Source: Phycisphaeraceae bacterium | Lineage (GTDB): Bacteria > Planctomycetota > Phycisphaerae > Phycisphaerales > Phycisphaeraceae | Direction: 5' to 3' | DNA length: 31,353 nt | Assembly: GCA_016763955.1 (NCBI GenBank) | Contig: JAESSU010000167.1 | Coordinates: 1-31,353, forward strand | Shown: in pieces, positions 2,431 to 30,124 of the stretch | How positions within the stretch are numbered: position 1 is the first letter of the stretch | How the letters are laid out: every line of letters starts with the position of its first letter | Made by a program: the position numbers and the translations under genes | The notes under the pieces: generated by a model | What the model saw: only the letters and a program-made list of their open reading frames with translations | Databases searched by the model: none | Told to the model about the DNA's origin: nothing

Positions 2431-3258
2431 TTACGCCAGTGCGGCGGTTGTCGTTAATTCATGTCGGCGTAGCTGGCTTCGCAGCTTAGCCATAATCATC
2501 GTGTGCATCTGACAGACGCGAGATTCGCTGATGTCGAAGGTCATACTGATTTCCTTCATCGTCATCCCTTCGTAGTAGTACAGAAGCACGATGAGTCGTT
2601 CGATACGTGTGAGGTCTTCTAAAATCAGATCACGTAGTTCCAACTTCTGAGCGATGACGGACGGTTGGCTGTAACTGTTGTCAGCCATGGTGTGGCTTGC
2701 ACAAAATTCCCGGTCAGAAGATTCGTTGTTATCAGTGATCTGTTGTTGTAGTGAGACGATACAGGCCAAAGATGCGTCCCGTGTGATCTTGCGGTATTCC
2801 TTGCGGTCTACATTCATCGTTTGGCAAAGGTCATCGTCGTTGGGGGCATAACCCCTTTGCCCCAACCACGAGGACTTTGCCTGTTCCAGCCGTGTGTTCC
2901 GTGTCCGGATCAATCTGGGCAGCCAATCCTGGCTTCGTAATTCATCGAGCATCGCTCCACGAATTCGATGGCTTGAAAAAGTTTCGAACTTAATACCTCG
3001 GTCAAAATCGTATGCGTCTAGTGCATCCATTAGACCAAAGACACCGGCTGTGATGAGTTCATCAGCGTTGGTGCGTTTGTGGGTCTTCAATGAGACGCGC
3101 TGGGCGTGGTACGTTACCAGTGGCATGTAGTTTTCTACTAACCTGTTTCTTAAGGCCACATCAGTGGGATGCAGTTTGTACTGAATCCAAGTGGCTTGAA
3201 TTGATACCGGCGACTTAAGACCCTGCCGGTTCTGGGATTCCCCTGATCGATACACCAT
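2431..3258 (-). CDS. RNA polymerase sigma factor, FliA/WhiG (sigma-28) type
   Basis: A group 3 sigma factor that directs RNA polymerase to a dedicated promoter class. Region 2 is clear: NADELITAGVFGLMDALDAY, then FDRGIKFETFSSHRIRGAML (core binding and -10 recognition). Region 3 continues as DELRSQDWLPRLIR, typical of FliA/WhiG. Region 4 is a helix-turn-helix with MTMKEISMTFDISESRVCQM near the C terminus. The length of 275 residues is slightly above the usual 240-260, with about 20 extra N-terminal residues. ATG 3258 is preceded by AGGGAG at about 6 nt, supporting this start. No flagellar or anti-sigma gene is adjacent, so its regulon cannot be read from context. An 11-bp inverted repeat about 50 nt upstream may control it. 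Confidence 0.92.
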   Translation of the reverse strand: MVYRSGESQNRQGLKSPVSIQATWIQYKLHPTDVALRNRLVENYMPLVTYHAQRVSLKTHKRTNADELITAGVFGLMDALDAYDFDRGIKFETFSSHRIRGAMLDELRSQDWLPRLIRTRNTRLEQAKSSWLGQRGYAPNDDDLCQTMNVDRKEYRKITRDASLACIVSLQQQITDNNESSDREFCASHTMADNSYSQPSVIAQKLELRDLILEDLTRIERLIVLLYYYEGMTMKEISMTFDISESRVCQMHTMIMAKLRSQLRRHELTTTAALA

Positions 3259-3474: not shown

Positions 3475-3582
3475 TCTATACCAGTCGTCAATGAACTTGT
3501 CCGAATGCTATTGTACGTGACGACTTTTTTAAGCCTCCAAAACGTTTTTAACGCGGTCAAAATCATACCCGAGGGGTATAAG
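3475..3582 (+). repeat. Dispersed palindrome-bearing element, copy A
   Basis: Copy A aligns without gaps over 105 bp with the minus strand of 15065-15169, at about 72% identity by my count, and over its last 44 bp with 9728-9770. The core reads CGTTTTTAACGCGGTCAAAAT and is followed by ATACCC-GAG-GGGTAT, a perfect 15-bp palindrome at 3565-3579. TATAAG (3577-3582) overlaps the right half-site and resembles a -10 box. A 72-residue ORF (3424-3642) covers the element, but I do not recognise it as a gene. Confidence 0.6.
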
Positions 3583-3584
3583 TC

Positions 3585-3686
3585 AGTGTGTTCGCTAGCA
3601 AACTGCGATTTACCGACTGTCGACTTTGAGGGTTTAAGCTAAATGACCAAACACGATGTCAGGCGGGAGTGCCGGTCATTTTTTTT
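3585..3686 (+). ncRNA. Candidate small RNA of about 100 nt (speculative)
   Basis: The interval starts just after the TATAAG box of copy A and ends in a hairpin with a T tract. No convincing ORF lies inside it. The combination of a promoter-like element, about 100 nt of non-coding sequence and a terminator suggests a stand-alone transcript. The start is inferred only from spacing to the -10-like box, and no expression evidence exists here. Confidence 0.25.
3641..3686 (+). terminator. Rho-independent terminator with no coding gene in front of it
   Basis: AAATGACC (3641-3648) pairs with GGTCATTT (3674-3681), and the T run continues to 3686. The stem is about 8 bp with a long 25-nt internal region that can fold further. 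No upstream plus-strand gene explains it, which is why a small transcript from copy A is proposed. Confidence 0.55.
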
Positions 3687-3786
3687 AGCTGATCCTCAGG
3701 CCAACCTTTGCGGTTGTCCCTCTTCCAAGGAGCGATAACTGCAACATGCGTGCCAAACCAAAACAAGGCTTATCGTGTCTAAAGAT

Positions 3787-3925
3787 TAGAAGCGTTCGGC
3801 AATATTCCAGATGCCGTCTGTGCCGACTCGGTGACTTTACCGAAAGTGATGCCCAATGGAGACTTCTTTAATATAGAGGTCTTCACCCATGTCTTGATCC
3901 TCATTGCTCTTGGCTATCACTTCAC
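3787..3925 (-). pseudogene. Decayed ORF fragments, family unknown
   Basis: Read on the minus strand, one frame gives a protein-like stretch ending ...EDLYIKEVSIGHHFR and a stop. A neighbouring frame continues as GKVTESAQTASG, and a third as DGIWNIAERF followed by a stop. Short, well-formed peptide stretches that hop between frames suggest a gene broken by indels. I cannot name the family. No start codon with a ribosome-binding site is visible. Confidence 0.25.
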
Positions 3926-3939
3926 ATAAAATAAAGGCA

Positions 3940-4178
3940 ATGGATCAACCCGACACATCCCACACGCACTCGCCTCAAAGCTCTGAGCATAGGGTTGATC
4001 GATCTGCGTGGGTCGTGACCACATTACAGGTGAGTCAGACGAAAAAGCCTATTGGTTAAATAGGACCCCGCAACAACGACTAGAAGCCCTCGAACTCAAC
4101 AGGCGTACTGTCTATGGATATGGTGATCAAGAAGCTTCCCAACGACTTCAAAGAATTTTTGAAATTACTGAGCGTTGA
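3940..4178 (+). pseudogene. Small partner protein of the nucleotidyltransferase, apparently frameshifted
   Basis: The frame at 4029-4178 encodes GESDEKAYWLNRTPQQRLEA and continues to LQRIFEITER before a TGA. This strongly resembles the 60-80-residue proteins usually encoded just upstream of, and overlapping, this type of nucleotidyltransferase. It has no good start in its own frame: a stop lies at 3996-3998 and only a GTG at 4008 follows. The adjacent frame from ATG 3940 runs MDQPDTS...WVVTTLQ up to the same point and then stops at 4057-4059. Joining the frames by a -1 shift at 4029 gives one continuous protein of normal shape. Explanations are a single-base deletion, a sequencing error, or a shorter protein from GTG 4008. 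It overlaps the next gene by 65 nt. Confidence 0.55.
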
Positions 4179-4569
4179 AGAAGTAGAATATTTACTTGTA
4201 GGGGGTTACGCAGTGGGCTATCACGGCTATCCCCGTGCCACTTCCGATATGGATATCTGGATTGCAATGAGTGATCGTAACGCGATCAAGACCACCAAAG
4301 TTTTGGCTGACTTCGGATTCCAAGCTCCTAACCTCAATAAAGAACTTTTTTTACGCACCGAATGTCTCGTACGAATGGGAACCCCTCCGTTTCGCATTGA
4401 GATTCTCACCGATATTGATGGCGTTGAATTTGATAGTTGCTATAAAAATGCGTGTTTTGTAACCATCGACCAGATCGATGTGCCCATTATTAGTCTTGCA
4501 GACTTAAAGCAAAACAAGCTTGCTAGCGGTCGTCATAAAGACCTCGATGATCTAGAGAATCTTCCTTAA
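4114..4569 (+). CDS. Minimal nucleotidyltransferase (DUF6036/MNT-like)
   Basis: A small nucleotidyltransferase-fold protein of 151 residues. The signature glycine pair is at residues 30-31 (EYLLVGGYAVGYHGYPRAT), followed by SDMDIW with the two metal-binding acids D45 and D47. A third acid is likely E96 in FRIEILTDIDG. The C terminus ASGRHKDLDDLENL is typical of this family. Members resemble the catalytic half of MNT/HEPN-type toxin-antitoxin and AbiEii-like systems, but a toxin role is not shown here. The start at ATG 4114 or ATG 4120 overlaps the 3' part of the small partner ORF. The surrounding sequence is decayed, so the gene may be a horizontally acquired remnant. Confidence 0.75.
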   Translation: MDMVIKKLPNDFKEFLKLLSVEEVEYLLVGGYAVGYHGYPRATSDMDIWIAMSDRNAIKTTKVLADFGFQAPNLNKELFLRTECLVRMGTPPFRIEILTDIDGVEFDSCYKNACFVTIDQIDVPIISLADLKQNKLASGRHKDLDDLENLP

Positions 4570-4619
4570 ACGATCGAACACAAATAAATGCGTCGTTGTC
4601 CCGGGGGCATGAATGTTGT

Positions 4620-7178
4620 TTAACTGATGCTTACAGTGGGCAGTGAGAAGAAGAAGGTGCTGCCTTTGCCGGCTTGTGATTCAAGCCAGACGCGGCCTTC
4701 GTGGGCGTTGACGATTTCCTTGACAATCGATAGTCCTAGGCCGCTGCCTTGGAGCTTGTGCTGATCACTGACGGTGGCTTGATAGAACTTGTCAAAGAGA
4801 AAAGCTTGATCCTGTTTGGGAACACCCGGGCCATCGTCTTTAACCCAGATAACGACACTTGAGCCTTGCTGACGAGCACCAATGGCAATCGCTTTTTTCT
4901 GAGGCGTGAATTTGACCGCGTTAGATAGCAGATTCGTGAGAATTTGATGAATACGGTCACGATCCGCATAGACTGATGGCAGGCCTTGTGGGATTTGGAT
5001 AGACCATTTAAAGCTGCCTGCGGTTTGTTTGAATTGCAGGGTGACCTGCTCAATGAGTGGAGCAAGTTGTAAATGCGTAAAGTCATATGACTGGCTACAT
5101 GCTTCCATTCTGCGAATATCTAGAAAGTCATTAATGAGCTTGTTAAGACGGTGTGTTTCGTCGTGAATGATTTTCAGGAAACGGTTTTGTTTGTCCTTGG
5201 GAAAATCTCGACTGAGCAGTAATTCCGCATACCCACGCAGGCTTGTCAGAGGTGTGCGTAATTCGTGACTCACGGTTGCCACGAGTTCGTCCCTCATGCG
5301 GTCGACTTCTTTACGTTGGGTAATGTCCCGTTGGACGGTTGCCATGCATAAGGGGTCTCCCGTGCGTGGATGCTTCACGACAAAGGCATTGATATGAACG
5401 TCAATGCCTTTGTGCGTACTGCGATGCCTCACCGCTCCTTCACCGTCCCAGTGTCCAATTTCTGCAATGGCAGGCATGGTGATGTTTTGGAAAGTAGACC
5501 ATGTCCCCGGACTGTAAATGTCCGAAAGGTGCAGGGTATCGACCGGCTGGCTGTGGGTGAGTCCAAGGAGTTCACGGCCGGCATTATTGATGAATTGAAC
5601 CATCCCGGCATGGGATGCCATGATGATCAGATCATTGGAGGTTTGCACCAGTGAGACAAATTTTTGCTGCTGTTCTTCTGCGATTTTACGATCGGTGATG
5701 TCACGGAGAATCGCACGCGCAGCAGGTGGTCGCCCAGGCTCAGAGAGCAGGCTAAGGTTTCCTTCGACGGTGACGGTTTTGCCTTCACGGGTAAAAAACT
5801 CTGTTTCGACGCGCACGAGATTCTCGCCGGAGAACACGCGACGTAATAATTCGGTCCAACGTGTGCGACAGTTAGGCGGGACCACATCAAAGACGGACAA
5901 GCGTTGTACTTCACTATGGACATACCCCATTGCTTGCCGCCAAGCACGGTTGACGAAACGAATTTCCCCTTCACGTGAGATAATCTGAATCAAGTCGTTG
6001 GATCGTTCAAACAGGTCGCGGTATCTCTCCTCACCGCCTCGTGCTTGATCTTCTGCTTGACGGCGTTGATTGATCTCGCGTTCAAGTTGGTCGATGGTAC
6101 TTTGCAATTCAATAGATCGGGCATCGACCTGATGTTGAAGTTGTTTTCGAGCTTGCTCGTGTTGCTTGATACGACGTTGCTGAATGTCATGGCGAACCAC
6201 GGCAGCGGTGAGTTCAGAGGCCACCTCCAGAATATGTAATTCATGAGAGGTGGGGTGTGCGTCAATTTGGTGGAGGATGGCAAAGGTTCCCACCATGCAG
6301 CCAGGCTCCGTGGAGATAGGCGTGGACCAGCAGGCCCGCGTGCCATGTCTTTGAGCGATGGCTTCGACATCCATGGCTTTGCCGACTTGCAGACTGTCGA
6401 GTGACTGGGCCAAGGTCGGGACAAGGCTCGGCCCCGCTGCCAGTCGAATACGATGAGTCTGGGGCTCAAAGAGCATAATAGCGCATTGGCCATCAGTGAG
6501 TAATTTTTCAACCTGCAAGCAGATTTGTTCTAGGCAGGGGCGTAATGCCAGATTGCGTCCTACGAGTCGATAACCTTCAACTTGGAAAAGAGCTAATTGC
6601 ATTTGCCGGAGTCGTTGGATACCGCATTGGATTATCTCTGTGACTGCCGTCAGGAAATTGCGGTCTGCCATGGAGAAGGGGCGTGGTTCTGGATCGTTGA
6701 GCATTAGCACACCAAAGGCTCGGTCGGACATAGGAATTGGGATCACGGCACTGGCGCGTTGAGCATGTTCAACGAGTAAATCCGGAGCTGCAAAGTAAGT
6801 TTCTTTTTCAAAGTCGCTAACGAATGAGGGTTCAGATGATTGCAAGCAACTTAGTGCCTGTGTTTCAGGCGACATGCAAAGTGTCGCATGACCGACGCGT
6901 TGGCTGTCCCATCCGTAGCCTGCTCGGAGTGTCAAGGTTTTTTCATCGCAGCGCATTTCAAAGGCACCGGCTCGCTGGCATTGCAATGTTTTGGCAGTGA
7001 GCTCCACAGTCCGGCTTAGCAACTCAGCAATGGACTGTGCGTTAAGTACAATTTCACTTACAGCTACGAGTGCTTTTTGATGATCCGGCTGCACCATGTG
7101 AGCGGTTTTTGCCAGGGTTTGTTGGATGCTTAGTGTCGCCAAAGTACTTCTCTCTAAGTGATTTTGACACATGCTCAA
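4620..7178 (-). CDS. Multi-sensor histidine kinase (GAF-GAF-PAS-PAS-HisKA-HATPase)
   Basis: A cytoplasmic sensor kinase with no membrane segment. Two GAF-like domains (about residues 30-195 and 200-345) are followed by a coiled coil (345-400) and two PAS domains (about 400-515 and 520-630), each ending in the RDIT motif that leads into the next module. The HisKA H-box ATVSHELRTPLTSLRGY carries phospho-acceptor H638, counted from the TTG at 7178. The ATPase shows the N box (ILTNLLSNAVKFTP), G1 (DDGPGVP), F box (LFDKFY) and G2 (GSGLGLSIVKEI). There is no attached receiver. The cognate regulator may be the single-domain receiver at 8773-9162. The start is TTG 7178 or ATG 7172, neither with a strong Shine-Dalgarno site. 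A large inverted repeat lies about 80 nt upstream. Confidence 0.92.
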   Translation of the reverse strand: MSMCQNHLERSTLATLSIQQTLAKTAHMVQPDHQKALVAVSEIVLNAQSIAELLSRTVELTAKTLQCQRAGAFEMRCDEKTLTLRAGYGWDSQRVGHATLCMSPETQALSCLQSSEPSFVSDFEKETYFAAPDLLVEHAQRASAVIPIPMSDRAFGVLMLNDPEPRPFSMADRNFLTAVTEIIQCGIQRLRQMQLALFQVEGYRLVGRNLALRPCLEQICLQVEKLLTDGQCAIMLFEPQTHRIRLAAGPSLVPTLAQSLDSLQVGKAMDVEAIAQRHGTRACWSTPISTEPGCMVGTFAILHQIDAHPTSHELHILEVASELTAAVVRHDIQQRRIKQHEQARKQLQHQVDARSIELQSTIDQLEREINQRRQAEDQARGGEERYRDLFERSNDLIQIISREGEIRFVNRAWRQAMGYVHSEVQRLSVFDVVPPNCRTRWTELLRRVFSGENLVRVETEFFTREGKTVTVEGNLSLLSEPGRPPAARAILRDITDRKIAEEQQQKFVSLVQTSNDLIIMASHAGMVQFINNAGRELLGLTHSQPVDTLHLSDIYSPGTWSTFQNITMPAIAEIGHWDGEGAVRHRSTHKGIDVHINAFVVKHPRTGDPLCMATVQRDITQRKEVDRMRDELVATVSHELRTPLTSLRGYAELLLSRDFPKDKQNRFLKIIHDETHRLNKLINDFLDIRRMEACSQSYDFTHLQLAPLIEQVTLQFKQTAGSFKWSIQIPQGLPSVYADRDRIHQILTNLLSNAVKFTPQKKAIAIGARQQGSSVVIWVKDDGPGVPKQDQAFLFDKFYQATVSDQHKLQGSGLGLSIVKEIVNAHEGRVWLESQAGKGSTFFFSLPTVSIS

Positions 7179-7255
7179 CGGTCTTGAGGATTGATTTATA
7201 AGATCACATCAATGGAAGGTTGAGTTGTAGATTCCCGTAATCTTTTTGATAGGTT

Positions 7256-7385
7256 GAGTCAGAACTGCCAGGAACGTCAGGTAAATTATTGCTGTTTTGA
7301 AGACAATTCAGCGGATGTATTTTGTTGACGCAATCAAGGCCATAGTAATTATTGTGGCCCTGACGCTCCTGGTGATTCTGACTCG
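7256..7385. other. Large inverted repeat with internal hairpins (candidate structured RNA or MITE)
   Basis: Arms at 7256-7280 and 7361-7385 (25 nt) pair with two mismatches and two G-T wobbles on either strand, beginning GAGTCAGAA and ending CGTCAG. Inside, GGCCATAG...TTGTGGCC at 7339-7360 forms a second hairpin, and GCTG...CAGC near 7292-7312 a weak third. The fold is a closed multi-branch junction of 130 nt in the leader of the histidine kinase gene. No ORF occupies it. No clear target-site duplication is visible. Confidence 0.55.
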
Positions 7386-7448
7386 GTGTGTGAGATCGGA
7401 AATTTTTACATTAAATTAAGTGCGTTACATTTTGGTTGTTTGGCTAAC

Positions 7449-7464
7449 TCGGCACAATTGCCGA
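7449..7464. terminator. Short hairpin after the sigma54-activator gene (possible terminator)
   Basis: TCGGC-ACAATT-GCCGA is a 5-bp stem lying about 26 nt past the stop codon of the minus-strand activator gene. It lacks a T tract on that strand, so termination activity is only a guess. Confidence 0.25.
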
Positions 7465-7489
7465 ATTATCGGAAGTAGGATCGGGAAAA

Positions 7490-8776
7490 TCACGGATTCT
7501 TGGGTTTTGTGATTTTGTACTTTTTGATCCTGTATCGCAGGTTATCCCAACTGATACCTAGCGTCCGTGCAGCAGCTGCTTTATTCCAGTTCGCATGCTG
7601 TAATGCAACCTCAATTGTGTTCCTTTCTTGCTGTGCAAGGACTGAATTCGTGCCTGTGGTACTCAAAGGCCCATGGGGTTGCTTTGAATCTTGTGTGTTG
7701 GTGATGGTGTTATCTGCAAAATCCGGGCCAAGCGTGTCAGGTTCGACGATTCCGTCATCACATAGCAGGGCACTTCGTTCTAGGACATTGCGTAATTCTC
7801 GAATATTGCCCGGCCAGTCGTACTGGCATAGCGAGAGCATCGCTGCGGCGGAAAGGGTGATCGGATCGTTTTGAGAGAATATTGATTGGCGTTGTGTTAG
7901 AAAATGCTCTGCTAGCAGGGGGATATCTTCTTGCCTAAGGCGCAGCGGGGGCAATTCAATGGGGAACACGTTGAGTCGGTACATCAAATCTGCTCGGAAG
8001 CGTCCTTGGGTGACTTCGTGTTTTAGATTACGATTGGTCGCCGCAATAATGCGGACATCAGCTTGGAATTCAATGCCGCTGCCGACTTTTCGGAATGTTC
8101 GTTCTTCGAGTACACGTAGAAGTTTGACTTGCAAAGGTAAGGGCATTTCGCCAATTTCATCGAGCATTAATGTGCCAGAATTAGCGAGTTCCACGAGTCC
8201 CATTTTGTCTGTGTCTGCTCCGGTGAAGGCTCCTTTGACGTGGCCAAAGAGTTCGGATTCCATCAGTGATTCAGGTAATGCCCCGCAGTTGACTGCGATA
8301 AAGGGTTTTTGATGTCGCGGTGAGTGTTGATGGATATAGCGTGCGGTGAGTTCCTTGCCGGTTCCCGTTTCGCCGGTGATGAGCACGGTAGCCATGGACG
8401 GGGCGACACGTTGGCAGAGTTTTAGGATTTTCGTAACAGGCAGAGATTGGCCAATGACATTAACCGGCTGGGTTTCGTGTGTGTGTTTATGATTTTGAGC
8501 TTTTGAGTTTTTCTCTAGGCTTTTAAGCTGCTGATTGGTTTGGTCTAATTGTGTTTTAACTGCTTGAAGCTCATCGTCTTTACGCTGCTGGTCATCGACT
8601 AACCGTCGAAAATCACGAGCATAGAGAACCAATTGAGAATTGAGCAACTGCAGGTGTTGAGCCATCTGCTGATTAAGGGCAACCTCATCGCTAGCTAAGT
8701 GAGACGCATCGATATTCTGGGAGACAGAATTTTGCGATGGCGAGATAAATTTTAGAGGCTCGGGGGCTTCACTCAT
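7490..8776 (-). CDS. Sigma54-dependent transcriptional activator without its own receiver domain
   Basis: A bacterial enhancer-binding protein that remodels RNA polymerase-sigma54 using ATP. Residues 30-95 form a coiled-coil-like N region in place of a receiver. The AAA+ domain (about 108-335) has Walker A GETGTGKE (135-142), the sigma54-contacting GAFTGA loop (182-187), Walker B LMLDEIGE (203-210) and WPGNIREL (321-328). A Fis-type helix-turn-helix (398-420, KAAAARTLGISWDNLRYRIK) binds DNA. All key residues are intact. Its ATG overlaps the stop of the upstream receiver gene by 4 nt, so the pair is translationally coupled and behaves like a split NtrC-type regulator. The missing receiver on this chain is the unusual point. 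Confidence 0.94.
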   Translation of the reverse strand: MSEAPEPLKFISPSQNSVSQNIDASHLASDEVALNQQMAQHLQLLNSQLVLYARDFRRLVDDQQRKDDELQAVKTQLDQTNQQLKSLEKNSKAQNHKHTHETQPVNVIGQSLPVTKILKLCQRVAPSMATVLITGETGTGKELTARYIHQHSPRHQKPFIAVNCGALPESLMESELFGHVKGAFTGADTDKMGLVELANSGTLMLDEIGEMPLPLQVKLLRVLEERTFRKVGSGIEFQADVRIIAATNRNLKHEVTQGRFRADLMYRLNVFPIELPPLRLRQEDIPLLAEHFLTQRQSIFSQNDPITLSAAAMLSLCQYDWPGNIRELRNVLERSALLCDDGIVEPDTLGPDFADNTITNTQDSKQPHGPLSTTGTNSVLAQQERNTIEVALQHANWNKAAAARTLGISWDNLRYRIKKYKITKPKNP

Positions 8777-9162
8777 AGGCTTGGCTGTTTTTGGAGGTTA
8801 TCCGTTAAGGCTTCTTCGACGCGGTCAAGTAGTTCCATCGGGCTAAAGGGTTTGACGAGGTAGGTGTTAACGCCTGCTTCACGTCCTTGTTGCAGGTCTG
8901 CTGGCTGACTCTTACAGGTGAGCATAATAATGGGAATATGGGCGGTCTTACGTTCTGAGCGAAGCTTGGCAGCGACATCAATCCCGTGCAAGCCGGGCAT
9001 AAGCCAGTCGAGAATAATCAAATCCGGCACATGTTTGCGAGCTTGTTCAAGAACCTTGGGGCCGGTGCAAGCTTCAATCATCTGCCGGTTTGGATCCTCG
9101 AGCGTGGTTTGCACCAGCAAGCGGATGTTCGGTTCGTCATCAGCAATTAAAATTTTCTTCAC
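8773..9162 (-). CDS. Single-domain response regulator (CheY-like receiver)
   Basis: A 129-residue receiver domain with no output domain. The acidic pocket DDE is at residues 8-10, the phospho-acceptor is D52 (LIILDWLMPG), the switch threonine T82 is in MLTCKSQ, and the conserved lysine K104 is in YLVKPFSP. The start is GTG 9162 with a GGAA about 10 nt upstream. A nearby ATG is out of frame. The 4-nt overlap with the sigma54 activator suggests that phosphorylation of this receiver controls the activator in trans. The kinase at 4620-7178, also on the minus strand, is the obvious candidate phosphodonor, but a direct link is inferred. Confidence 0.93.
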   Translation of the reverse strand: MKKILIADDEPNIRLLVQTTLEDPNRQMIEACTGPKVLEQARKHVPDLIILDWLMPGLHGIDVAAKLRSERKTAHIPIIMLTCKSQPADLQQGREAGVNTYLVKPFSPMELLDRVEEALTDNLQKQPSL

Positions 9163-9299
9163 GCATGAATTCCAGTACGAATGAGGTTCGAATCGACTTT
9201 ACAATAAATGAGACGGGCAAGTTTTCCTGTATCTGCCAAGACCTATAAGAGAGCATTATTCTACAGCCTAAAGTCTTTTTTGTCCCCTATAAAGAGGTT

Positions 9300-9404
9300 G
9301 GCGTTTCGTGCACGTGGGTCACGTGTCGGCTAATGGATGGATTAGTTCGGATATGATTTCATAAGAAATAGCAACCGACACGTGACCATCATGCACGTTA
9401 CGCC
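9300..9404. other. Large inverted repeat enclosing two hairpins (cruciform/three-way junction)
   Basis: Arms at 9300-9329 and 9375-9404 (30 nt) match at about 25 positions, including an uninterrupted GGTCACGTGTCGG block and a CGTGCA block. The loop holds two perfect small hairpins: CTAAT-GGATGG-ATTAG (9330-9345) and ATTTC-ATAA-GAAAT near 9357-9370. It lies about 140 nt upstream of the response regulator start. Its architecture resembles the element at 7256-7385, but the sequence differs. Confidence 0.6.
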
Positions 9405-9727
9405 CGGAAATTTATTGGTTTTTCGAATCAAAATGTTGGCTTCAAGTTGACATAATTGCCCGGTTGGGTGACAAGGTCAGTCGACATCCTTTGACTTACC
9501 AAGGCACAGGGCAGGTGGGTGACTAGCGGTACTTTTACGATTGCCAGTCCATTGAGTAGCTTTAACGTAATCCTAGGTCCAATTTAAGTCAAGGAAAAAC
9601 ATTATTTTTTGAACTTAATGGGGCCCAAGTCACTGACAGACGCGGGGGGGCTTGCGAGATCACCTTGGTTAGTGACCCTGTTCGATTGTTTGTGTCTGCG
9701 GCCTGCCTAGTTATTGTTTGTCGGTCG
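9405..9727. other. Non-coding interval before the FHA gene
   Basis: No ORF with coding character is visible. The only structure I see is an imperfect AT-rich hairpin at 9582-9619, in which TTAAG...CAA pairs with TTG...CTTAA, each arm carrying one bulged base. Together with the cruciform before it and element copy B after it, this makes about 690 nt without a gene. Confidence 0.4.
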
Positions 9728-9775
9728 TCAATGCGTTTTTAATACAGACAAAATGATGTCCGATGGGCATATAAT
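9728..9775 (+). promoter_or_regulatory. Dispersed palindrome-bearing element, copy B, probable promoter/operator of the FHA gene
   Basis: The core shares about 75% identity over 44 bp with the minus-strand copy at 15065. CGTTTTTAATACAGACAAAA leads into ATGTCC-GAT-GGGCAT (9756-9770), a 15-bp palindrome with one mismatch. A perfect TATAAT at 9770-9775 abuts the palindrome. The FHA/phosphatase start codon is 80 nt downstream. A protein bound to this palindrome would cover the -10 region, consistent with repression. Confidence 0.55.
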
Positions 9776-9854
9776 GTATCTTCAATGGAGCTGATCCTGT
9801 ACGATATCGATTAATGCTAACGGGTTCTTGTTTTACTAAAGAAGAGAGACCAAT

Positions 9855-11543
9855 TTGGCCAAGGGATTTGCGGCAACAACACCACTTAACGCAATTGAAC
9901 CCTACGACCGCGTTTTTGAAATAGACGACGGCAGCGGGCAGATTCGTCATTTCCCTCTCATCGGGCAAACGATCACCGCCGGTCGTATCGCGGAAGTGGA
10001 TATTCAACTCAATAATACGAGTGTTTCACGTAAACATGCAGAGTTTTATTGTGACCGTTGGGGACGCTGGTGGGTTCGAGATTTAGGCTCTAGTAACGGC
10101 ACGCATGTCAACGGGTTTTTAACGACTCAGCGGATGCTCGAATTAGCCGACTGTGTCGAACTAGGCCAGTGCAAGCTGACTTTGACGATGCCTGATCCGT
10201 CGATGGAACCTTGCGGGGGGACTTCTATTGCAGGCCAAGTTGTTGAAGTTCATTCATCACCTGATTCTGTTTCAGGATTGAGCATCTTACGCCAGTCTCT
10301 AGCAGGATCGGCACGCATCTCTGCAATGCATTTAAATCAACTCATGGAAATGAGCCAGACGTTACATCGCACGGAACAGCAGCGAGAACGCTTGAGACTA
10401 CTTTGTGAATTAATGGTTAGTGAGCATTTTTCCGCAGACATCGCCGTCGTGCTGATGATCAATAAGAAGGAAGCTGGCTCGCCACAAACCTTGTGTGTCC
10501 CACAGGTGCGCACGGGCTGCGTTGCTCAATCTTTATATATCACCGATGCATTACTCGACGCGTGTAAAACTTGCACTGAACCGACGCTTGTTAAACCCTC
10601 CCAGCCGCAGGGAGCTGCTGCTACTGATACGCGATTGGCCGCCATGGCATGTCCGATTCGTAATGATGAGGATGTGTTGGTGTTGCTGTATTTAATGGTG
10701 CGTCAGAATTTCGCCAATGAAGAATGGTTGACGCTCGCGTCATTGGCTTCAGAGCATTTTAAGCAAGCTGAGTCTTCATGGGTCAACCGCAAACTTGCTA
10801 AGGTTAACGCACTTGTTGAAGTTGATCTTGAACGTGCTCGTGACATTCAAATGCGTTTAGTTCCAAGCGGCATTAAAATTCCTGACTTGGATGTCGCAAT
10901 CGGCTTTAAACCTTGCCGTTGGGTGGGGGGAGATTATGTCGATGTGCTTAGGCTTTCAACGGGTAATGTGTTGCTCGTCGTTGCGGACGTTTGTGGCAAA
11001 GGTTTGCCCGCATCATTGGTTTCATCTAGTTTGCATACCATGGTTCATACGGTGACCGCAGCGGGCGCGGATATGGTCAACATGACGTGTTTGCTTAATC
11101 GCCATTTGGTCACATATCTGCCCACGAACCGGTTTGTTACTGCGATACTCATCGAGTTAAATCTTAAGACAGGGCAACTGCAATTTATCAATGCAGGACA
11201 TCCCTCGCCACTGATTTTGGATGCTGCGGGCAACAAACGCGATTTGAAATTAGGAGGGTATGAGCCTTTAGGGATACGTGATGTGGCGTATCAGGCATCG
11301 GATGATATTCTCGCATCGGGGGAACTGCTTGCCATGTTCACCGATGGTCTGACCGAACTCAAAGACCGCTCAGGTAAAATGCTCACTTGCGTTAGGCTTG
11401 GTGATCACCTTTCGCAAATCGCAACTAATTGTAAAGAGCAACCTGTCGATGCTGCTGCGGAGCAGTTGAATCAAATCCTAGACGCTTATACCGGCAACCG
11501 ACTCCAAAGCGATGACCGCACCTTCTTGATGGCACGCCGTTAA
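9855..11543 (+). CDS. FHA domain-containing PP2C/SpoIIE-type serine phosphatase
   Basis: A signalling protein joining a phosphothreonine-binding FHA domain to a PPM phosphatase. The FHA domain (about residues 20-112) has AGR (42-44), SRKHAEF (58-64) and DLGSSNGTHVNG (76-87). The middle (about 160-320) is GAF-like and unassigned. A helical linker containing DLERARDIQMRLVPS leads to the SpoIIE domain. That domain has GGDYVDV (358-364), the metal ligand D378 in VADVCGKG, NAGHPSPL, D497 in FTDGLTE, and DDRTF at the end. All expected metal-binding acids are present, so it should be active. The start is TTG 9855, 7 nt after GAAGAGAG, and no earlier in-frame ATG exists. It probably acts in a partner-switching or Ser/Thr kinase pathway, with substrate unknown. 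Confidence 0.93.
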   Translation: MAKGFAATTPLNAIEPYDRVFEIDDGSGQIRHFPLIGQTITAGRIAEVDIQLNNTSVSRKHAEFYCDRWGRWWVRDLGSSNGTHVNGFLTTQRMLELADCVELGQCKLTLTMPDPSMEPCGGTSIAGQVVEVHSSPDSVSGLSILRQSLAGSARISAMHLNQLMEMSQTLHRTEQQRERLRLLCELMVSEHFSADIAVVLMINKKEAGSPQTLCVPQVRTGCVAQSLYITDALLDACKTCTEPTLVKPSQPQGAAATDTRLAAMACPIRNDEDVLVLLYLMVRQNFANEEWLTLASLASEHFKQAESSWVNRKLAKVNALVEVDLERARDIQMRLVPSGIKIPDLDVAIGFKPCRWVGGDYVDVLRLSTGNVLLVVADVCGKGLPASLVSSSLHTMVHTVTAAGADMVNMTCLLNRHLVTYLPTNRFVTAILIELNLKTGQLQFINAGHPSPLILDAAGNKRDLKLGGYEPLGIRDVAYQASDDILASGELLAMFTDGLTELKDRSGKMLTCVRLGDHLSQIATNCKEQPVDAAAEQLNQILDAYTGNRLQSDDRTFLMARR

Positions 11544-11674
11544 AAATTCGGTTTCCTAGTGGTTTTATAGACTCCAACAATACAATCAGCAACACATCAA
11601 AAAATAGCTGCGACACAATCTGTCGCTGATGCATCGCAAGATGCAATACGTGATGTTTTAGCTGCAACAAATCA
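11544..11674. other. Convergent intergenic gap with a short hairpin
   Basis: GCGACA-CAATC-TGTCGC (11610-11626) is a perfect 6-bp stem between two convergent genes and may help end transcription from either side, although no T tract follows. One frame across 11571-11669 reads as a protein-like peptide ending in a stop but has no start codon. I treat it as chance or a relic. Confidence 0.3.
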
Positions 11675-12697
11675 TTAGAGATGGATGTTCACACCTTCTG
11701 CTTTGACCTTTTGGATTAGCAGCTTGGCTTCGTCGAGCGTGGCGTTAAGGCGGTTGACGGCATCGTTGAGATTGTTGTAAAGCTGAGCATCATTGAGGAG
11801 CTTACCAACGGTTCCTTCACCTTGACTGGCTTTGTCTAGGGTGAGTTTGGCAGAGCGGATGGCTGCACTCATATCATCTACAACTGAAAATATTTTTTTG
11901 GAGATTAGGTCTGCACGCTCTTGGGTCTTGGTTGCGGTTTGTTCCCAAGCTGCGGCAGTGTCGGTGGTCTGCTGAACCATTTTCTGGATATCTGTTTTGA
12001 GTTGCTTATCACCAATGAGGCTGTTGATATGATCGATGGTGGTTTTAAGTTCTGCCATTCGTTCGTCAGCACGTGCCATGAGTGTGTTGATGTTGGCGGG
12101 GGCTTTGCCTTGGTCTACATCCGCTAAGGTGCGTGGGGCAGTGAGCTGGTTGATGTTGATTCCGACTTGTGTCCATTGTTTGGAGAGTGTGGAAAAATCT
12201 TCGGTGACCTGTGTGAGTTTTGAGATGGCAGGATCCAAATAGCCTTGCATGGTGTTAGTGAGGTTTGCGAGTATATTGGTCAGTTCGCCATGGAGTTTTC
12301 CTGAGCCATCTTTAGTCAGAAAAACGGTCATTTGTTGATCGGTGAGTTTGTCGGTCGTGAAGGATAGAGCTGGACTGCCCCCTAGGATTTTTCCTGCGAT
12401 TGTGACATGAACATCTTTGGGGATATTGAATTTGTTACGGATTTGTGCGGTCATGGTGACCCCGCGATTGGGTGGAGTTTGCAGATCAATATTAGTGAGT
12501 CTGCCGATATCCACGCCATCAAGGATCACACGTGAGGAAGAATTAAGTCCACCTGCCTGGATGAATTTGATTTTGACGATGTAGCCGGGCTCTAGGAACT
12601 TGGGGATGTATCCGAAGATAAACATCAGCATTCCTACACCAGCTACGCCGCCAATGGCAGTTAATCCAACGAAGATGTCACGGGTGCGGTGGCTCAT
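11675..12697 (-). CDS. mlaD: MlaD family (MCE domain) lipid-transport protein
   Basis: The periplasmic, membrane-anchored substrate-binding component of an MCE-type ABC lipid transporter. Residues 8-30 form the single N-terminal membrane anchor. The MCE domain follows at about 38-115, with AGGLNSSSRVILDGVDIGRL as its first conserved part. The C-terminal half (about 130-340) is long, helical and coiled-coil-like, as in PqiB/MlaD relatives that build a hexameric channel. The length of 340 exceeds that of E. coli MlaD (about 183). It starts 43 nt after the ATPase gene, in the same operon. The precise substrate (phospholipid or other lipid) is inferred from the family only. Confidence 0.87.
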   Translation of the reverse strand: MSHRTRDIFVGLTAIGGVAGVGMLMFIFGYIPKFLEPGYIVKIKFIQAGGLNSSSRVILDGVDIGRLTNIDLQTPPNRGVTMTAQIRNKFNIPKDVHVTIAGKILGGSPALSFTTDKLTDQQMTVFLTKDGSGKLHGELTNILANLTNTMQGYLDPAISKLTQVTEDFSTLSKQWTQVGININQLTAPRTLADVDQGKAPANINTLMARADERMAELKTTIDHINSLIGDKQLKTDIQKMVQQTTDTAAAWEQTATKTQERADLISKKIFSVVDDMSAAIRSAKLTLDKASQGEGTVGKLLNDAQLYNNLNDAVNRLNATLDEAKLLIQKVKAEGVNIHL

Positions 12698-12740
12698 TTG
12701 CGTCTCGACTCAATTAGGCAAAAAAAATACAGTTTGTGAT

Positions 12741-13556
12741 TCAATCAAAGCCGTTGCGGATCAATGCCAGATCATCTTCATTAGCCTGCCCGTGGATGAA
12801 TTGTTGAACAAACTTATCCGGGGAGTTGAGGAATTTGTCTGGTGTATCGTCCGCGACAACGTGACCATCGTAAAGCATGATCATGCGGTCGGCAATTTTT
12901 CGGGCGCTAGTCATATCATGCGTCACCACAATGCTGGTGATCCCTAGTCGTTTGCCAAGGCTAAGGATCAGCTCGTTGATCAGGTCTGATCGGATGGGGT
13001 CTAGTCCCGTGGTGGGTTCATCATACAAAACGACTTTGGGTTCAAGAACAATCGCGCGGGCTAGTGCAACGCGTTTTTTCTGACCGCCTGAGAGATCAAT
13101 GGGCATTTTGTTCTCAAAGCCTTCTAAACCGACAGCTTTGAGTACTTGGGCGCAGCGTTTGTGTTGATCTTCTTTGGCCATGCGTGTGTGTTCAACAAGT
13201 GGGAAGCAGATGTTGCCCCGGACATTCATCGAATCAAAGAGGGCGCCCATTTGAAAGAGAAACCCAAATTGTTTGCGGGGTTGGACCAGTTCATGGCTGG
13301 ACATTTCATCGATGCGTTGGCCTTGGAACCAAACTTCGCCTGCATCGGGTTTGAGCAAGCCGACGATGTGTTTGAGTAGGACACTTTTACCTGTCCCACT
13401 TGGGCCGAGGATGACGGTGGTTTGGCCGGGCATAAAATCTAGCGAGACGTGATCTAGGACGGTCAGTTTGCCGAAGGCTTTACAAACATCGACCAGCCGG
13501 ATGATCGGTTCAGTGCTCGTAGTGCTTTTATCCAAGCTTGATATATCCCTTGTCAA
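12741..13556 (-). CDS. mlaF: MlaF-type ABC transporter ATPase
   Basis: The ATP-hydrolysing subunit of the MCE lipid transporter, located on the inner face of the cytoplasmic membrane. It shows Walker A GPSGTGKSVLLK, a Q-loop in FLFQMGALFDSMNV (the MGALFDS stretch is typical of MlaF/Ttg2A), signature LSGGQKKRVALARAI, Walker B VVLYDEPTTGLDP and H-loop VVTHDM. The length of 271 is normal. The start is uncertain. TTG 13556 lacks an obvious Shine-Dalgarno site, and the ABC fold begins near residue 17. The gene lies 35 nt after an aminotransferase gene and before mlaD. The MlaE permease normally found beside it is not in this window. Confidence 0.93.
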   Translation of the reverse strand: MTRDISSLDKSTTSTEPIIRLVDVCKAFGKLTVLDHVSLDFMPGQTTVILGPSGTGKSVLLKHIVGLLKPDAGEVWFQGQRIDEMSSHELVQPRKQFGFLFQMGALFDSMNVRGNICFPLVEHTRMAKEDQHKRCAQVLKAVGLEGFENKMPIDLSGGQKKRVALARAIVLEPKVVLYDEPTTGLDPIRSDLINELILSLGKRLGITSIVVTHDMTSARKIADRMIMLYDGHVVADDTPDKFLNSPDKFVQQFIHGQANEDDLALIRNGFD

Positions 13557-13591
13557 TAAACTTGACTTGTTGTTTGTGTACGCGGATAAAA

Positions 13592-14707
13592 TTAGACCTG
13601 TTGGGTATAAAAATCTTTAATAACGTCGCAAACTTCGTCAATTTCAGCTTCAGTGAGTAGCGGATGCACGGGTAAGCTAAGAACCTGCTTTGCAGCTTTT
13701 TCACTGTGGGGCAGTGTGCCTTGGCTTTGATTTAAATACGCGAAGCATTCTTGCAAATGCAGGGGGGTTGGATAGAACACGCCAAAACCGATTTGGTTTG
13801 CTTTAAGATGAGCAACCAATCCGTCGCGTTGTTCCTGAGCCACGCGAATGGTGTATTGATGATACACATGGGTATAACCTTCGGGGGGCAGTGGCAAGTT
13901 AATCGGAAGGTCTGCGAGTTTTTGAGCATATAACGCAGCGTTAGATCGACGGGCCGCGTTGTATGTCGGTAGATACGGGAGCTTAATATTTAACAAAGCA
14001 GAATGCAGAGCATCAATACGGAAGTTCCCGCCGATGAACTTATGCTGATACTGACTGGTCTGACCGTGGAGCCTTAGTGACAGTAGTTTTTCTGCGAGTT
14101 TATCATCGTTGGTTAGGCAAGCGCCCGCATCACCGCATGCTGAAAGATTTTTAGTTGGGTAAAAGCTTAAGCAACCAATGTCTCCCATTGAGCCAATCTG
14201 CTTGTCACCGATACGCGCACCAACAGATTGGGCATTGTCTTCAACCACATGCAGTCCATGTTTTTGAGCGATGGCATTAATCGCGTGCATGTCCGCGGGC
14301 AAGCCGAAGATGTGCACGGGTATGATGGCTTTGGTGTTAGGCGTGATCGCAGCTTCAATTTGATTCGGGTCGATATTCATCGTCACCGGGTCAATGTCAA
14401 CGAAGACGGGCGTTGCCCCCACACGGGCAATACTGCCGCCGGTAGCAAAGAACGTAAAGGGGCTGGTAATGACTTGGTCGCCTGCTTTGATGTCCAACGC
14501 CATTAAAGACATGATCAGCGCATCGGTGCCGCTGGAGACGCCGATGGCATGTTTACATTCACATGCCTTAGCTAAGTCGGCTTCAAAGTCCGAGGTGTAC
14601 TTGCCTAACACAAACTGACTTGTGGCTAGGATGTTATTAAATGTTTCGCGCATCTGGTTAGCCAGAGGCTCGTGCAGGGCAGATAGATCAAGAATTGAAA
14701 CAGCCAT
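13592..14707 (-). CDS. DegT/DnrJ/EryC1/StrS family sugar aminotransferase
   Basis: A PLP-dependent enzyme that aminates keto-sugars bound to nucleotides, for surface polysaccharide or lipid decoration. From ATG 14707 the protein has 371 residues, normal for the family. The PLP pocket is visible: SSGTDAL (58-64), VVEDNAQSVGA with D157 contacting the pyridine nitrogen, and the Schiff-base lysine K186 in SFYPTKNLSACGDAG. The MAVSILDLS opening matches the usual start, so I prefer ATG 14707 over the TTG at 14725. It leads an apparent operon with mlaF and mlaD, an uncommon pairing that may reflect a shared role in the cell envelope or simple co-transcription. Confidence 0.92.
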   Translation of the reverse strand: MAVSILDLSALHEPLANQMRETFNNILATSQFVLGKYTSDFEADLAKACECKHAIGVSSGTDALIMSLMALDIKAGDQVITSPFTFFATGGSIARVGATPVFVDIDPVTMNIDPNQIEAAITPNTKAIIPVHIFGLPADMHAINAIAQKHGLHVVEDNAQSVGARIGDKQIGSMGDIGCLSFYPTKNLSACGDAGACLTNDDKLAEKLLSLRLHGQTSQYQHKFIGGNFRIDALHSALLNIKLPYLPTYNAARRSNAALYAQKLADLPINLPLPPEGYTHVYHQYTIRVAQEQRDGLVAHLKANQIGFGVFYPTPLHLQECFAYLNQSQGTLPHSEKAAKQVLSLPVHPLLTEAEIDEVCDVIKDFYTQQV

Positions 14708-15064
14708 ATAATTAATTCCAGACAAAGTGATGCAAAGTTCACTAGTGTATGATCAATAGACTCTGTAGACAATCTGCGACCCCCCGGGAAGTTTTTTTTT
14801 AAGACCCCCAGATTTTTTAAGACAGGTTTAAAATAATGACAAGCAGTTTTATTTAATTGCGAGCTGAGGGTGTCCGATCAAACCCCAAAATTTGTTCTCT
14901 GCGTGTTTTTTGCAGATTTTTTGTAAAAGAGATTGCTTCATGTCAGTGACATCCAAGCTCTCATTAAAAGGCTGTATTTTTTATCAGTCTTCACGGATAC
15001 GACGTTAAACGGTAAAATAAATTTTGTATTCAGTATTTTTAGCCCCATTGTTTTGGGGCAAGGG
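14708..15064. other. Divergent intergenic region
   Basis: No gene is seen. It contains ATGTCA-G-TGACAT (14940-14952), a perfect 13-bp palindrome that may be an operator. It also has a weak TCTGC...GCAGA hairpin followed by six T near 14897-14920, and a GCCCC...GGGGC hairpin near 15042-15060 beside element copy C. T and A tracts are frequent, as expected for a promoter region. Confidence 0.35.
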
Positions 15065-15169
15065 ATACCTATCGGGTATCATTTTGTCCGCGTTGAAAAC
15101 GCTTTGGAGACTGGGACAATATGCCGCGTAAGCAAGTAACAGAACAAGGTTGTTGACGATTGGTATAGA
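15065..15169 (-). repeat. Dispersed palindrome-bearing element, copy C
   Basis: On the minus strand this copy aligns base for base with copy A (3475-3579) over 105 bp, starting at TCTATACCA and ending in the palindrome ATACCC-GAT-AGGTAT (15065-15079; GATACC and GGTATC arms are perfect on a 5-nt spacer). The core CGTTTTCAACGCGGACAAAA is nearly identical in all copies. Here the element sits just before, and reads away from, the zinc-ribbon membrane gene. A minus-strand ORF covers it in the same frame as the ORF over copy A. Confidence 0.6.
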
Positions 15170-15173
15170 TTTT

Positions 15174-16958
15174 ATGGGGCAGTTAAAGTCCAAAAAATGT
15201 GCTAGTTGTCAGTCTGTGTTACCCAGCCACGGGCCGGATGATGATGTTGTATTGAATTTTTGCCCGTTTTGTGGCTTTCGGTTGGCAGAGCCTAAAATTC
15301 AAACACCTGTTAAACCTGAAAATCATATTCAGCAGCTTAAACAAACCGATGGCGGGTATCTCCTAGCATTCGATGATGATGTTCAAGGTGAGACCCAAGA
15401 GGACTTAGCAAGTGATGGGGGCATCAAACCACCCCAAGAGACTCCCAAGCGGTCTCCTCAACCCCCCAGTTCATCACAAACCGATTCGCCTGCTGTTTTA
15501 CCACCCTTACCTGACTCGATACAAGATAATGATAATGCAGATTTACTGGTATTGGATTTGGATTTGGTACGGTCAGAGGAAGACGCACAATCGCCGCCCC
15601 CGGAACTTCATGAGAAACCTTCTAAGCTTAAACATGCTCCAGAATCATCATTTTCAAAGACGCGTTTTATTCCAAGCGATGACAGTAACGTCTTGCCGAT
15701 GCCCGGTGAGGTGAAGACACCCAAAGCCGAGCCTGTTGCGAAAGATATTCCAACAGCGAACCTTTCTAACGACACACTCGCGGGGCTTGAGGACGAGGAA
15801 GATCAACTTGACCTTGCGATGGCAGAGGAAGTTGTTGATTTGACTGCGGACTCGGTTGACGATGATTTGGATGATGCATCAGGCGGTCTAGTGGTGACTG
15901 ATGCGGCGGATGATGACACGTTTGACCTAGATTACAAGATCAAACCCGAAGAGACCGCTCCGATTGTCGGTTTGAATATGCTTCAGCAGCAAGTGGGGCG
16001 GCTAAGTTCTTGGGACCGCGTGCCAGTGCCTGAGTTGGCTGGAGCTTCGGATCAATCTAGCGTGTATGAGCTGTCCGTCGATCCAGAGGAGGTGGCGGAG
16101 AAAGTTTGCCCATCTTGTAATGCGAGCATGTCGTTCGACACGGTCGTATGTTCGACTTGCGGGTACAGTATTCAACTTGGACGCCATGTCGATGGACTAG
16201 ATAGCGAACCTACGAGAGATCGCTTTGATCGGCCTGAACGCTTTGTTTTAGAAAGTGCAAAATACGAAGAGGATCAGGAATATTACCATCGCCAACATCT
16301 ATTTAATGATGTGTATTTCCCGACGGTGGTTTTGTTAGCCATGCTGGTGTTTTTGGTGTTCACTGTCATGGTGATTTCCCCGAAGGAAATGGTGAATCGT
16401 GATATTGTTGAAGCGGTTATCCCAAGCAAGGTCGTTGCAGTTGTGCCCGCTGCGCCCAACGCAGGTCTTAATGCACCGGGGATGGGGGGAGTGGCTGCGA
16501 GTTTTATGACTGGATTCGCGTCTCCGTTACCACTGCCACCGTTAACCATTCAACAACGATGGTTTTGTATTGCCTATTTGTTTGGCACGAACTTGCTGAA
16601 AATTGCGATTAAAATCCCTTTTATTTTTATTGGGATGCTATTGGTCGCACGACTCTTTGGGGTGTCCTTTGGCGGGGTTGTGACAGCGATTACCAAGATG
16701 CTAGCCATTGCGATGGCTGCGCATGTGATCACATTTTTTATCGAATCGATTCTCTTTATTATCACCGAGGGGTTGCCCTTGATGGGGTTAGGTGTTTATG
16801 TGAGTTTTCCCTTTACGGTGTTCACTTTTGTTAGCCTGACGATGCGGTTTTTTGAATTGGATATTCAGGAAGCGATTGTGATGTATCTAGCGAGCTACTT
16901 GCTGCCAGTCTTTGCTGCGATGTTCATGCTCATGTGGGTGGTCACTGCACTGACTTAG
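15174..16958 (+). CDS. Zinc-ribbon, acidic-linker multi-pass membrane protein of unknown function
   Basis: I do not recognise a named family. Numbered from ATG 15174, a first zinc ribbon has cysteines 9, 12, 30 and 33. It is followed by about 260 residues of low-complexity, Pro/Asp/Glu-rich linker. A second zinc ribbon (C312, C315, C326, C329) precedes a membrane domain with one segment near residue 385 and about four or five more from residue 465 to the C terminus. The architecture is common among uncharacterised planctomycete proteins. In-frame TTG codons at 15150 and 15153 are alternative starts with AAGG just before them. Element copy C lies directly upstream. The second plus-strand zinc-ribbon protein at 22007 has a similar plan but no sequence match that I can see. 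Confidence 0.8.
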   Translation: MGQLKSKKCASCQSVLPSHGPDDDVVLNFCPFCGFRLAEPKIQTPVKPENHIQQLKQTDGGYLLAFDDDVQGETQEDLASDGGIKPPQETPKRSPQPPSSSQTDSPAVLPPLPDSIQDNDNADLLVLDLDLVRSEEDAQSPPPELHEKPSKLKHAPESSFSKTRFIPSDDSNVLPMPGEVKTPKAEPVAKDIPTANLSNDTLAGLEDEEDQLDLAMAEEVVDLTADSVDDDLDDASGGLVVTDAADDDTFDLDYKIKPEETAPIVGLNMLQQQVGRLSSWDRVPVPELAGASDQSSVYELSVDPEEVAEKVCPSCNASMSFDTVVCSTCGYSIQLGRHVDGLDSEPTRDRFDRPERFVLESAKYEEDQEYYHRQHLFNDVYFPTVVLLAMLVFLVFTVMVISPKEMVNRDIVEAVIPSKVVAVVPAAPNAGLNAPGMGGVAASFMTGFASPLPLPPLTIQQRWFCIAYLFGTNLLKIAIKIPFIFIGMLLVARLFGVSFGGVVTAITKMLAIAMAAHVITFFIESILFIITEGLPLMGLGVYVSFPFTVFTFVSLTMRFFELDIQEAIVMYLASYLLPVFAAMFMLMWVVTALT

Positions 16959-28873: not shown

Positions 28874-29016
28874 CAGTCTTCGCCGAGCCTCAGACATGGG
28901 CTTGTGGTGGTTTTTTTTGTTAAACTAACTTTATGACTGGGGTTTGTGGTGATGTTTTTTGTTAAACTAATTTTATTGTCGGGGCAAAGCCCATGTCTGA
29001 GGCTCGGCGAAGACTG
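28874..29016. repeat. REP-type hairpin R1 (perfect 30-bp arms, duplicated loop)
   Basis: Arms 28874-28903 and 28987-29016 are exact reverse complements over 30 nt, containing CAGTCTTCGCCGAGCC and GACATGGGCTT. The 83-nt loop holds two tandem copies of a roughly 40-bp T-rich unit, each with TGTTAAACTAA. R2 and R3 have only one such unit. The perfect arms suggest recent formation or active maintenance. The hairpin lies between PEPCK and the transposase gene. Confidence 0.9.
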
Positions 29017-29064
29017 GGATCGACCTTCATGTAACACCTGATATTTTATCACAGGGAACACGCA

Positions 29065-29586
29065 ATGCCCAAGCCCGGCTACGCATGGTGGCATCTGGTA
29101 CTACACACCAAAGGCTCATGGCTACACGGCGACCCTCGCGGCTTTCGAACACGTCAACATCGAATCCACAGTAGCGGTGATTACAAAAGTCCTCCCCCAT
29201 CTGGTGAACATCAAAATCTTCATCAATACGAAAAAGAAAAACTCAAAAACGCGGTCGTTATTCCAACTCATTTATATCAAATCATCGGCCAAGCACTTTA
29301 TCTTAAATCCAGCAAAATGAATGTCAAAACGCTAGCCATTAGCGTGGGGCCAACCCATGCTCATCTGCAAGTTGAACTTGAAAATAACTACAAGGTAGCA
29401 CTAAAACATACCGCAAAAATAAAACAAGCAGCTTCATATGCAGTGCGCAATGCACTGCCCGGCTCACTGTGGGCTCGCGGCGGAAAACCCATCGCAATCA
29501 GTGATCTAAAACACCAAATACGTGTTTATCAATACATTCAAACCCATGCCAAGCAAGGTGATTGGGTTTGGACATTCCAAGATTAA
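29065..29586 (+). CDS. REP-associated tyrosine transposase (RAYT, Y1/HUH family)
   Basis: An IS200/IS605-related single-strand nuclease that mobilises or processes REP hairpins. At 173 residues it is complete. GSWLHGDPRGFRTRQHR near the N terminus is typical of planctomycete RAYTs. The HUH metal motif is THAHLQV (H98, H100). The catalytic tyrosine is probably Y157 in VYQYIQTHAKQG, with Y155 the alternative. The start at ATG 29065 has AGGGA 8 nt upstream. It is bracketed by hairpins R1 and R2, and its 3' end is fused to sequence repeated before R3. All catalytic residues are intact, so it may still be active. Confidence 0.82.
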   Translation: MPKPGYAWWHLVLHTKGSWLHGDPRGFRTRQHRIHSSGDYKSPPPSGEHQNLHQYEKEKLKNAVVIPTHLYQIIGQALYLKSSKMNVKTLAISVGPTHAHLQVELENNYKVALKHTAKIKQAASYAVRNALPGSLWARGGKPIAISDLKHQIRVYQYIQTHAKQGDWVWTFQD

Positions 29587-29602
29587 TGACAATACGATTT
29601 TA

Positions 29603-29707: not shown

Positions 29708-29768
29708 TCAAAACCCCAAAATCCCAAACCACAAGAGCAAAACTTATAGTTTCTTCTTAAAACTTAAT

Positions 29769-29990: not shown

Positions 29991-30021
29991 AAGTGGTCAT
30001 CCCTGTTTTTCTGTATTTTAC

Positions 30022-30111: not shown

Positions 30112-30124
30112 CCATACGATTTTA

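Follow-up and report, generated by a model that had tools for sequence, protein, structure and literature searches.

A dispersed intergenic repeat of a Phycisphaeraceae bacterium very probably represents an IS630-linked family of miniature inverted-repeat transposable elements

The 31,353-nucleotide (nt) contig JAESSU010000167.1 of a Phycisphaeraceae bacterium (assembly GCA_016763955.1), hereafter the window, carries several copies of a short repeat. An earlier note, made from the sequence of the window alone, had read this repeat either as the shared operator/promoter of an undescribed regulon or as a small dispersed repeat family. Our analysis bears out the second reading, with 96 distinct copies in the sequence fetched from the window's own genome, and makes it very probable that the copies belong to a family of miniature inverted-repeat transposable elements (MITEs) of about 105 nt, linked to IS630 transposases and much like the RUP elements of pneumococcus. 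The repeat has several of the properties by which bacterial MITEs are recognised, being shorter than 200 bp, present in multiple copies, devoid of coding capacity and bordered by (imperfect) terminal inverted repeats. It also has ends in common with an IS630-family element, as seen in a transposase remnant of two genomes of the same genus (G001 and G002) and in the end bases of its intact relatives.

The copy set was obtained by fetching the regions around BLAST and pattern matches, searching them with nhmmer at E 1e-3 and merging overlaps, a copy being called full length when it extends from model positions 1-3 to 103-105. Distinct copies in the fetched sequence amount to 96 in the window's own genome (G000; 3.58 Mb in 559 contigs, completeness 78.5%), of which 70 are full length, to 31 in a family-level relative (G019), 26 of them full length, and to one each in G001 and G002. 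No place was found to be counted twice when the 96 were rechecked, and this number is a lower bound: two further copies are present in 40 other contigs (272 kb), picked mostly to avoid contigs with known copies, and three further G000 places lie outside the set (C464:13, C395:2372 and C105:14490). BLAST of one window copy, copy A, against its own genome gives at least 42 matches (40 of 80 candidates scored), including two weak ones (E 7.6) in which one end matches the other on the opposite strand, and another window copy, copy C, gives 40. The right-end pattern, with up to three mismatches, is found 111 times genome-wide as compared to 10 times for a reversed control pattern, and the left-end pattern 68 times in G000 as compared to none for its control. 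Matches at E 0.01 are present in 4 of 61 relatives, and five of the 51 genomes of the family contain a second end pattern, for which there is no control match. The match in one of these five, G068, was rejected as a chance match inside a coding gene, and a match in a gammaproteobacterial metagenome-assembled genome (JAADHS010000062.1) as a 22-bp chance match with no element around it.

Pairwise identity averages 70% within the 73 G000 copies taken as full length for the tree, 78% within the 26 of G019 and 61% between the two sets, and the tree, for the copies that were put in, splits the 26 completely from the 73. With the G019 consensus, further G000 places come up that were absent from the output of the G000 model, at C464:13-127 (77%) and C395:2372-2437 (88% over 66 nt), and both types could thus perhaps have been present in G000. 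Altogether, the copy sets fit with old, largely separate amplifications. Some G019 places (L174 1536-1750; L176-L178) display a right end, an unrelated interior and a left-end-like stretch 150-300 nt away, and are perhaps longer derivatives with the same ends.

The unit itself runs from TATACC to GGTATA and contains no gene of its own. Its borders are sharp: over the 70 G000 and 26 G019 full-length copies, each position of TATACC and of GGTATA carries 1.0-1.8 bits, while the positions outside mostly carry less than 0.2 bits, except that the three positions beyond the right end are A/T-rich (0.2-0.6 bits). The inverted repeats formed by the left (TATACCAGTCG) and right (TATACCCATCG) ends are imperfect, the left end agreeing with the reverse-complemented right end at 19 of 27 positions in the G000 consensus and at 20 of 27 in that of G019. 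The palindrome ATACCC-GAN-GGGTAT, which had been noticed in three window copies and is indeed present at the right end of all three, makes up the outer portion of that right repeat. The "-10-like box", proposed as a further shared feature, consists of the last four bases of the right terminal repeat and of flanking DNA, and it is not shared: the commonest hexamer at the right end of the 70 full-length G000 copies is TATAAA (15/70), whereas TATAAT occurs in only one of them and in none of the 26 of G019, copy B falling outside this count as it is not full length by the same cut.

The link to IS630 transposases comes from the genomes of the same genus. The 26-nt left-end pattern TATACCNNTCGTCAATGANCTTGTCC is found once in G001 and once in G002, with two mismatches and no control match, and in both genomes it directly adjoins a 75-amino-acid open reading frame (ORF) corresponding to the C-terminus of a truncated IS630 transposase. 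A 68-amino-acid piece of this ORF matches PF13358 (DDE_3) with an E value of 2.3e-7, above the cut-off of that model, and NF033545 (IS630 transposase) with an E value of 2.1e-11 and 43.8 bits, which is lower than the whole-protein cut-off of 100, as would be anticipated from a fragment. In G002, the remnant is preceded by a 446-amino-acid ORF, which we take to be an ISL3-type transposase. The same piece finds matches in 2 of 51 genomes of the family and in 10 of 392 genomes of the phylum. Its full-length relatives in G336 and G225, with transposases of 343 and 354 amino acids (NF033545, 225 and 191 bits, respectively), match the remnant at 49-59% over the 68-amino-acid piece. These related full-length IS630 elements end in TATACCCAT.../TATACCAGTC...: the ends are TATACCCATTT/TATACCAGTCACG in G336, with TATACCCATTTC... 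on the 3' side of the gene and TATACCAGTCACG... on the 5' side, and TATACTCAAGGCG... and TATACCCATAGCG.../TATACCAATAGCG... in G225. The left and right ends of our element are reminiscent of the G336 element on its two sides, including their asymmetry, as the arrangement of TATACCAGTC on the left and TATACCCATC on the right corresponds to that of the 5' and 3' flanks of the intact G336 gene.

According to gene models from a simple codon-usage gene caller, the copies lie almost only between genes. Only 3 of the 96 G000 copies and none of the 31 G019 copies are inside a modelled gene (93/96 and 31/31 are thus outside), even though modelled genes cover 86% of the 272 kb of sampled contigs. For the 81 G000 copies located outside genes and with both neighbours known, 28 gaps are divergent, 49 tandem and 4 convergent, as compared to 25.3, 48.1 and 7.6 expected from the TA sites in the gaps of the 40 other contigs (convergent shortfall, p 0.25), showing that gene context is as expected from TA sites between genes. 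The 30 G019 gaps are divergent in 8 cases, tandem in 15 and convergent in 7. An avoidance of convergent gaps had been seen only when the element loci themselves served as the background (28 convergent among 123 regions), and it was discarded as it disappeared against the other-contig background (15 of 138; p 0.25 with TA sites, 0.08 with length and 0.21 with region counts).

The strand and position of the copies relative to start codons, which the earlier note had proposed to tabulate genome-wide, reveal no promoter polarity: of the 81 G000 copies, 50 have their right end and 55 their left end turned toward a gene start, and in tandem pairs it is the right end that faces the start in 22 of 49 cases in G000 (p 0.57) and in 5 of 15 in G019. 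The regulon promoter thus fails the genome-wide orientation test. Under such an explanation, the conserved core and the TATA box would drive or control the expression of the gene on the right, as suggested by copy B, which lies shortly before an FHA/SpoIIE-phosphatase gene with TATAAT at its end, and by the fact that 77 of the 81 copies precede one gene or more. However, there is no significant avoidance of convergent gaps, the TATAAT box is nearly absent from the family, and copies in G000 and G019 do not occupy conserved positions, two regions excepted. When the neighbour proteins of G000 (179) and G019 (61) copies are compared, 13 BLAST rows are obtained; both neighbours match in only two cases (L024/L121 and L149/L092), where the element is reversed relative to the genes between the two genomes, and some other rows have one neighbour in common. 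This placement looks like repeated independent insertion, and a promoter or operator common to a regulon is highly improbable. It is conceivable, but rather unlikely, that single copies have been co-opted as portable promoters facing outward or as RNA-processing sites, in the manner described for the CREE of Neisseria, within a domesticated MITE network of Planctomycetota. GGTATA ends and A/T-rich target DNA would then form TATAAA-like boxes at either side, and copy B, before the phosphatase gene, as well as copies A and C, in divergent gaps beside sigma-factor and other genes, would set the expression of their neighbours.

Two other explanations have to be weighed. The copies could be MITEs of another transposase family, or REP/attC-like elements, with IS630-like ends arisen by chance, and in favour of this are the imperfect ends (19/27) and the lack in G000 of an intact helper having the ends of the element. 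Such a coincidence would nevertheless have to account for a 26-nt end that in two genomes, and with zero control matches, adjoins the C-terminus of an IS630 transposase, and for TATACCCAT and TATACCAGTC being common to the element and to the ends of the intact relatives, and we regard it as very unlikely. The palindromes, at the right end and, in some copies, of the CGTT...AACG type, could alternatively point to a structured non-coding RNA or to a cis-acting RNA element in many copies. This is extremely improbable, as no Rfam match is found in the window at gathering thresholds, RNA folding is close to that of shuffled sequences (z -0.3, -1.4 and -1.2) and the copies are found in both orientations relative to genes.

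We therefore favour an IS630-linked MITE, a gene-less element whose mobilisation in trans would depend on an IS630-family (Tc1/mariner) transposase recognising TATACC(C/A)... ends. It would insert at TA, leaving TA bordering each end, and would have multiplied independently in two or more related lineages. Copies would have survived almost only between genes, those present now being mostly old and diverged, and the family would presently be inactive. No target duplication beyond TA is seen, observed values being equal to expected ones for 1-9 nt outside the ends.

Several results weigh against the IS630-linked MITE. Its two arms are just 70% alike, and TA is present at both borders in only 43 of the 70 full-length G000 copies and 18 of the 26 of G019. 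No empty site was found among 124 script-joined junctions, and the TA duplication thus stays putative; spanning hits were obtained for 11 of these junctions, 10 being the copy itself and one (L168 vs L241) a different repeat. No intact IS630 element with the ends of the MITE (TATACCCATCGTCAATGA) was found in G000, in an assembly that is 78.5% complete, and the sole PF13358 match in this genome is a degenerate IS630 element with other ends, GATACCAATTCCAT.../TATACCAATCCCAT... (L186, G000:C208). The ends of this degenerate element read GATACCAATTCCAT / ATGGGATTGGTATA. Intact IS630 elements of G002 and G019 were considered as helpers and rejected, as their ends differ (in G002, 8/9 matches of that intact IS630 type, one partial; the comparison covers L185 and L188-L193). 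In G159, which has the nearest of the full-length multi-copy relatives that were looked at closely, the ends also differ from TATACC (TATAGTCAAACAAATCAG / TATAGTAAAAAGCATTT; TATAGTCAAAC.../TATAGTAAAAAG...). Finally, single-strand folding is no better than that of shuffled sequences, for DNA (z -0.9, -2.0, +0.3 and -0.4) as for RNA. A strong stem-loop is listed among the usual properties of bacterial MITEs in the part of PMC2229807 consulted; we treat strong single-strand folding as non-defining for a MITE.

In the window, a profile hidden Markov model (HMM), whose seed of 43 genome copies includes copies A and C but neither B nor D, matches four places, the best match in the reversed window reaching only E 0.43. 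The three places of the earlier note are thus confirmed, but not the total of three. Copy A (3477-3580, plus strand) is full length (E 8.7e-29, A being in the seed), its conserved unit being slightly shorter than the 3475-3582 first delimited. The right-end palindrome of copy A, ATACCC-GAG-GGGTAT, lies at 3565-3579 (plus strand) and, by the base profile of right ends of the 70 full-length copies, belongs to the right terminal inverted repeat. Copy A is 90% identical to another host-genome copy (G000:C520), and sits in a divergent gap, flanked by a sigma-70-family gene (2431-3258, minus strand) and by the gene 4114-4569 (plus strand). Copy B (9664-9771, plus strand) had been limited to the last 44 bp of the repeat, but the match covers model positions 7-105 (E 5e-12, B being outside the seed), so that copy B is near full length, although diverged and outside the full-length cut. 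Its left end points at a response-regulator gene (8773-9162, minus strand), and its right end is about 83 nt upstream of the FHA/SpoIIE-phosphatase gene (9855-11543, plus strand; Pfam), in line with the 80 nt noted before.

Copy C (15065-15167, minus strand) is full length (E 2.8e-25, C being in the seed) and lies in the divergent gap between the genes 13592-14725 (minus strand) and 15174-16958 (plus strand), its left end lying 6 nt away from the start modelled at 15174. The listed TTG start of ORF 15150-16958 falls within copy C (15150-15173), and the gene model starts at the ATG at 15174. Realignment of copies A and C gives the same count as before, 76 matches over 105 nt without a gap (72%), and the short alignments of B with C and of A with B give 77% over 47 nt and 74% over 43 nt, respectively. 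The fourth copy, D (13542-13609, plus strand), is 68 nt long. The HMM matches it at 13542-13586 (E 8.2e-7, D being outside the seed), and a right end at 13567-13609 (repeat family D4) directly continues this match up to 13609. As this element-like right end directly follows the match, copy D is an internally deleted copy, with its left end joined to its right end. It fills the gap between the gene 13592-14725 and an ABC ATPase gene (12741-13535, minus strand). Its overlap with the former, a DegT-type aminotransferase ORF, takes in the final five codons and the stop (13592-13609), and the repeat thus supplies the C-terminal end of that protein.

Other repeats are present in the window. A second dispersed family with CTAG-type ends, TTGCAGCTAAAACGTCACG...GATGCATCAGCGACAC...TAGCTGCAA, has one copy at 11556-11679, which fills the interval from 9855-11543 to 11675-12697; a copy of this family from L139 also matches 7 of 40 sampled host contigs, and it looks like another MITE-like family. 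At 28874-30250, a repeat cluster contains a 191-nt direct repeat (86%), 51-nt and 42-nt families, and a perfect 30-nt inverted repeat around CAGTCTTCGCCGAGCCTCAGACATGGGCTT.

A trio of intergenic motifs is thereby turned into an annotated repeat family and does not have to be read as a regulon. No such MITE family was found among the listed titles and abstract openings on MITEs in Planctomycetes/Phycisphaer, and the present one adds an abundant, very probably IS630-linked MITE in Planctomycetota. As it was amplified separately in two lineages and has asymmetrical ends, it makes a small system for studying the origin of such elements. Compared to the full-length IS630 elements of G336 and G225, it shares ends (TATACCCAT.../TATACCAGTC... 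and TATACCCATAGCG), and their transposase is related to the remnant, but these elements are about 1.1-1.2 kb long with a transposase gene, and the inner parts of their ends are unlike those of the repeat.

Among known MITEs, the nearest is RUP, which is described as 107 bp long, intergenic and present in 108 copies, with ends like those of IS630-Spn1 and TA targets, in the sections of PMC2229807 and PMC3049150 drawn upon here. The element described here, with about 105 nt and about 100 copies, is likewise intergenic and gene-less, with IS630-family ends and TA at its ends. It belongs to another phylum, and the likeness is one of description. As far as these sections go, RUP is over-represented between convergent genes (PMC3049150), as opposed to 4 of 81 copies here, and its copies are highly conserved (PMC2229807), as opposed to a mean pairwise identity of 70%. 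The Correia elements of Neisseria (CREE/NEMIS) are also small, with inverted ends carrying TA and many copies, again by description only, and differ by their longer inverted repeats of 24-26 bp in the corresponding passages (PMC2229807, PMC3049150). CREE can create a promoter at either or both ends, as stated in the part of PMC2649163 used here, and the TATA box at copy B may best be seen as a CREE-like promoter box generated by the end of the element. Finally, in the passage of PMC3049150 devoted to it, Nezha, a cyanobacterial MITE tied to ISNpu3-like elements, is likewise proposed to be moved by a resident insertion sequence.

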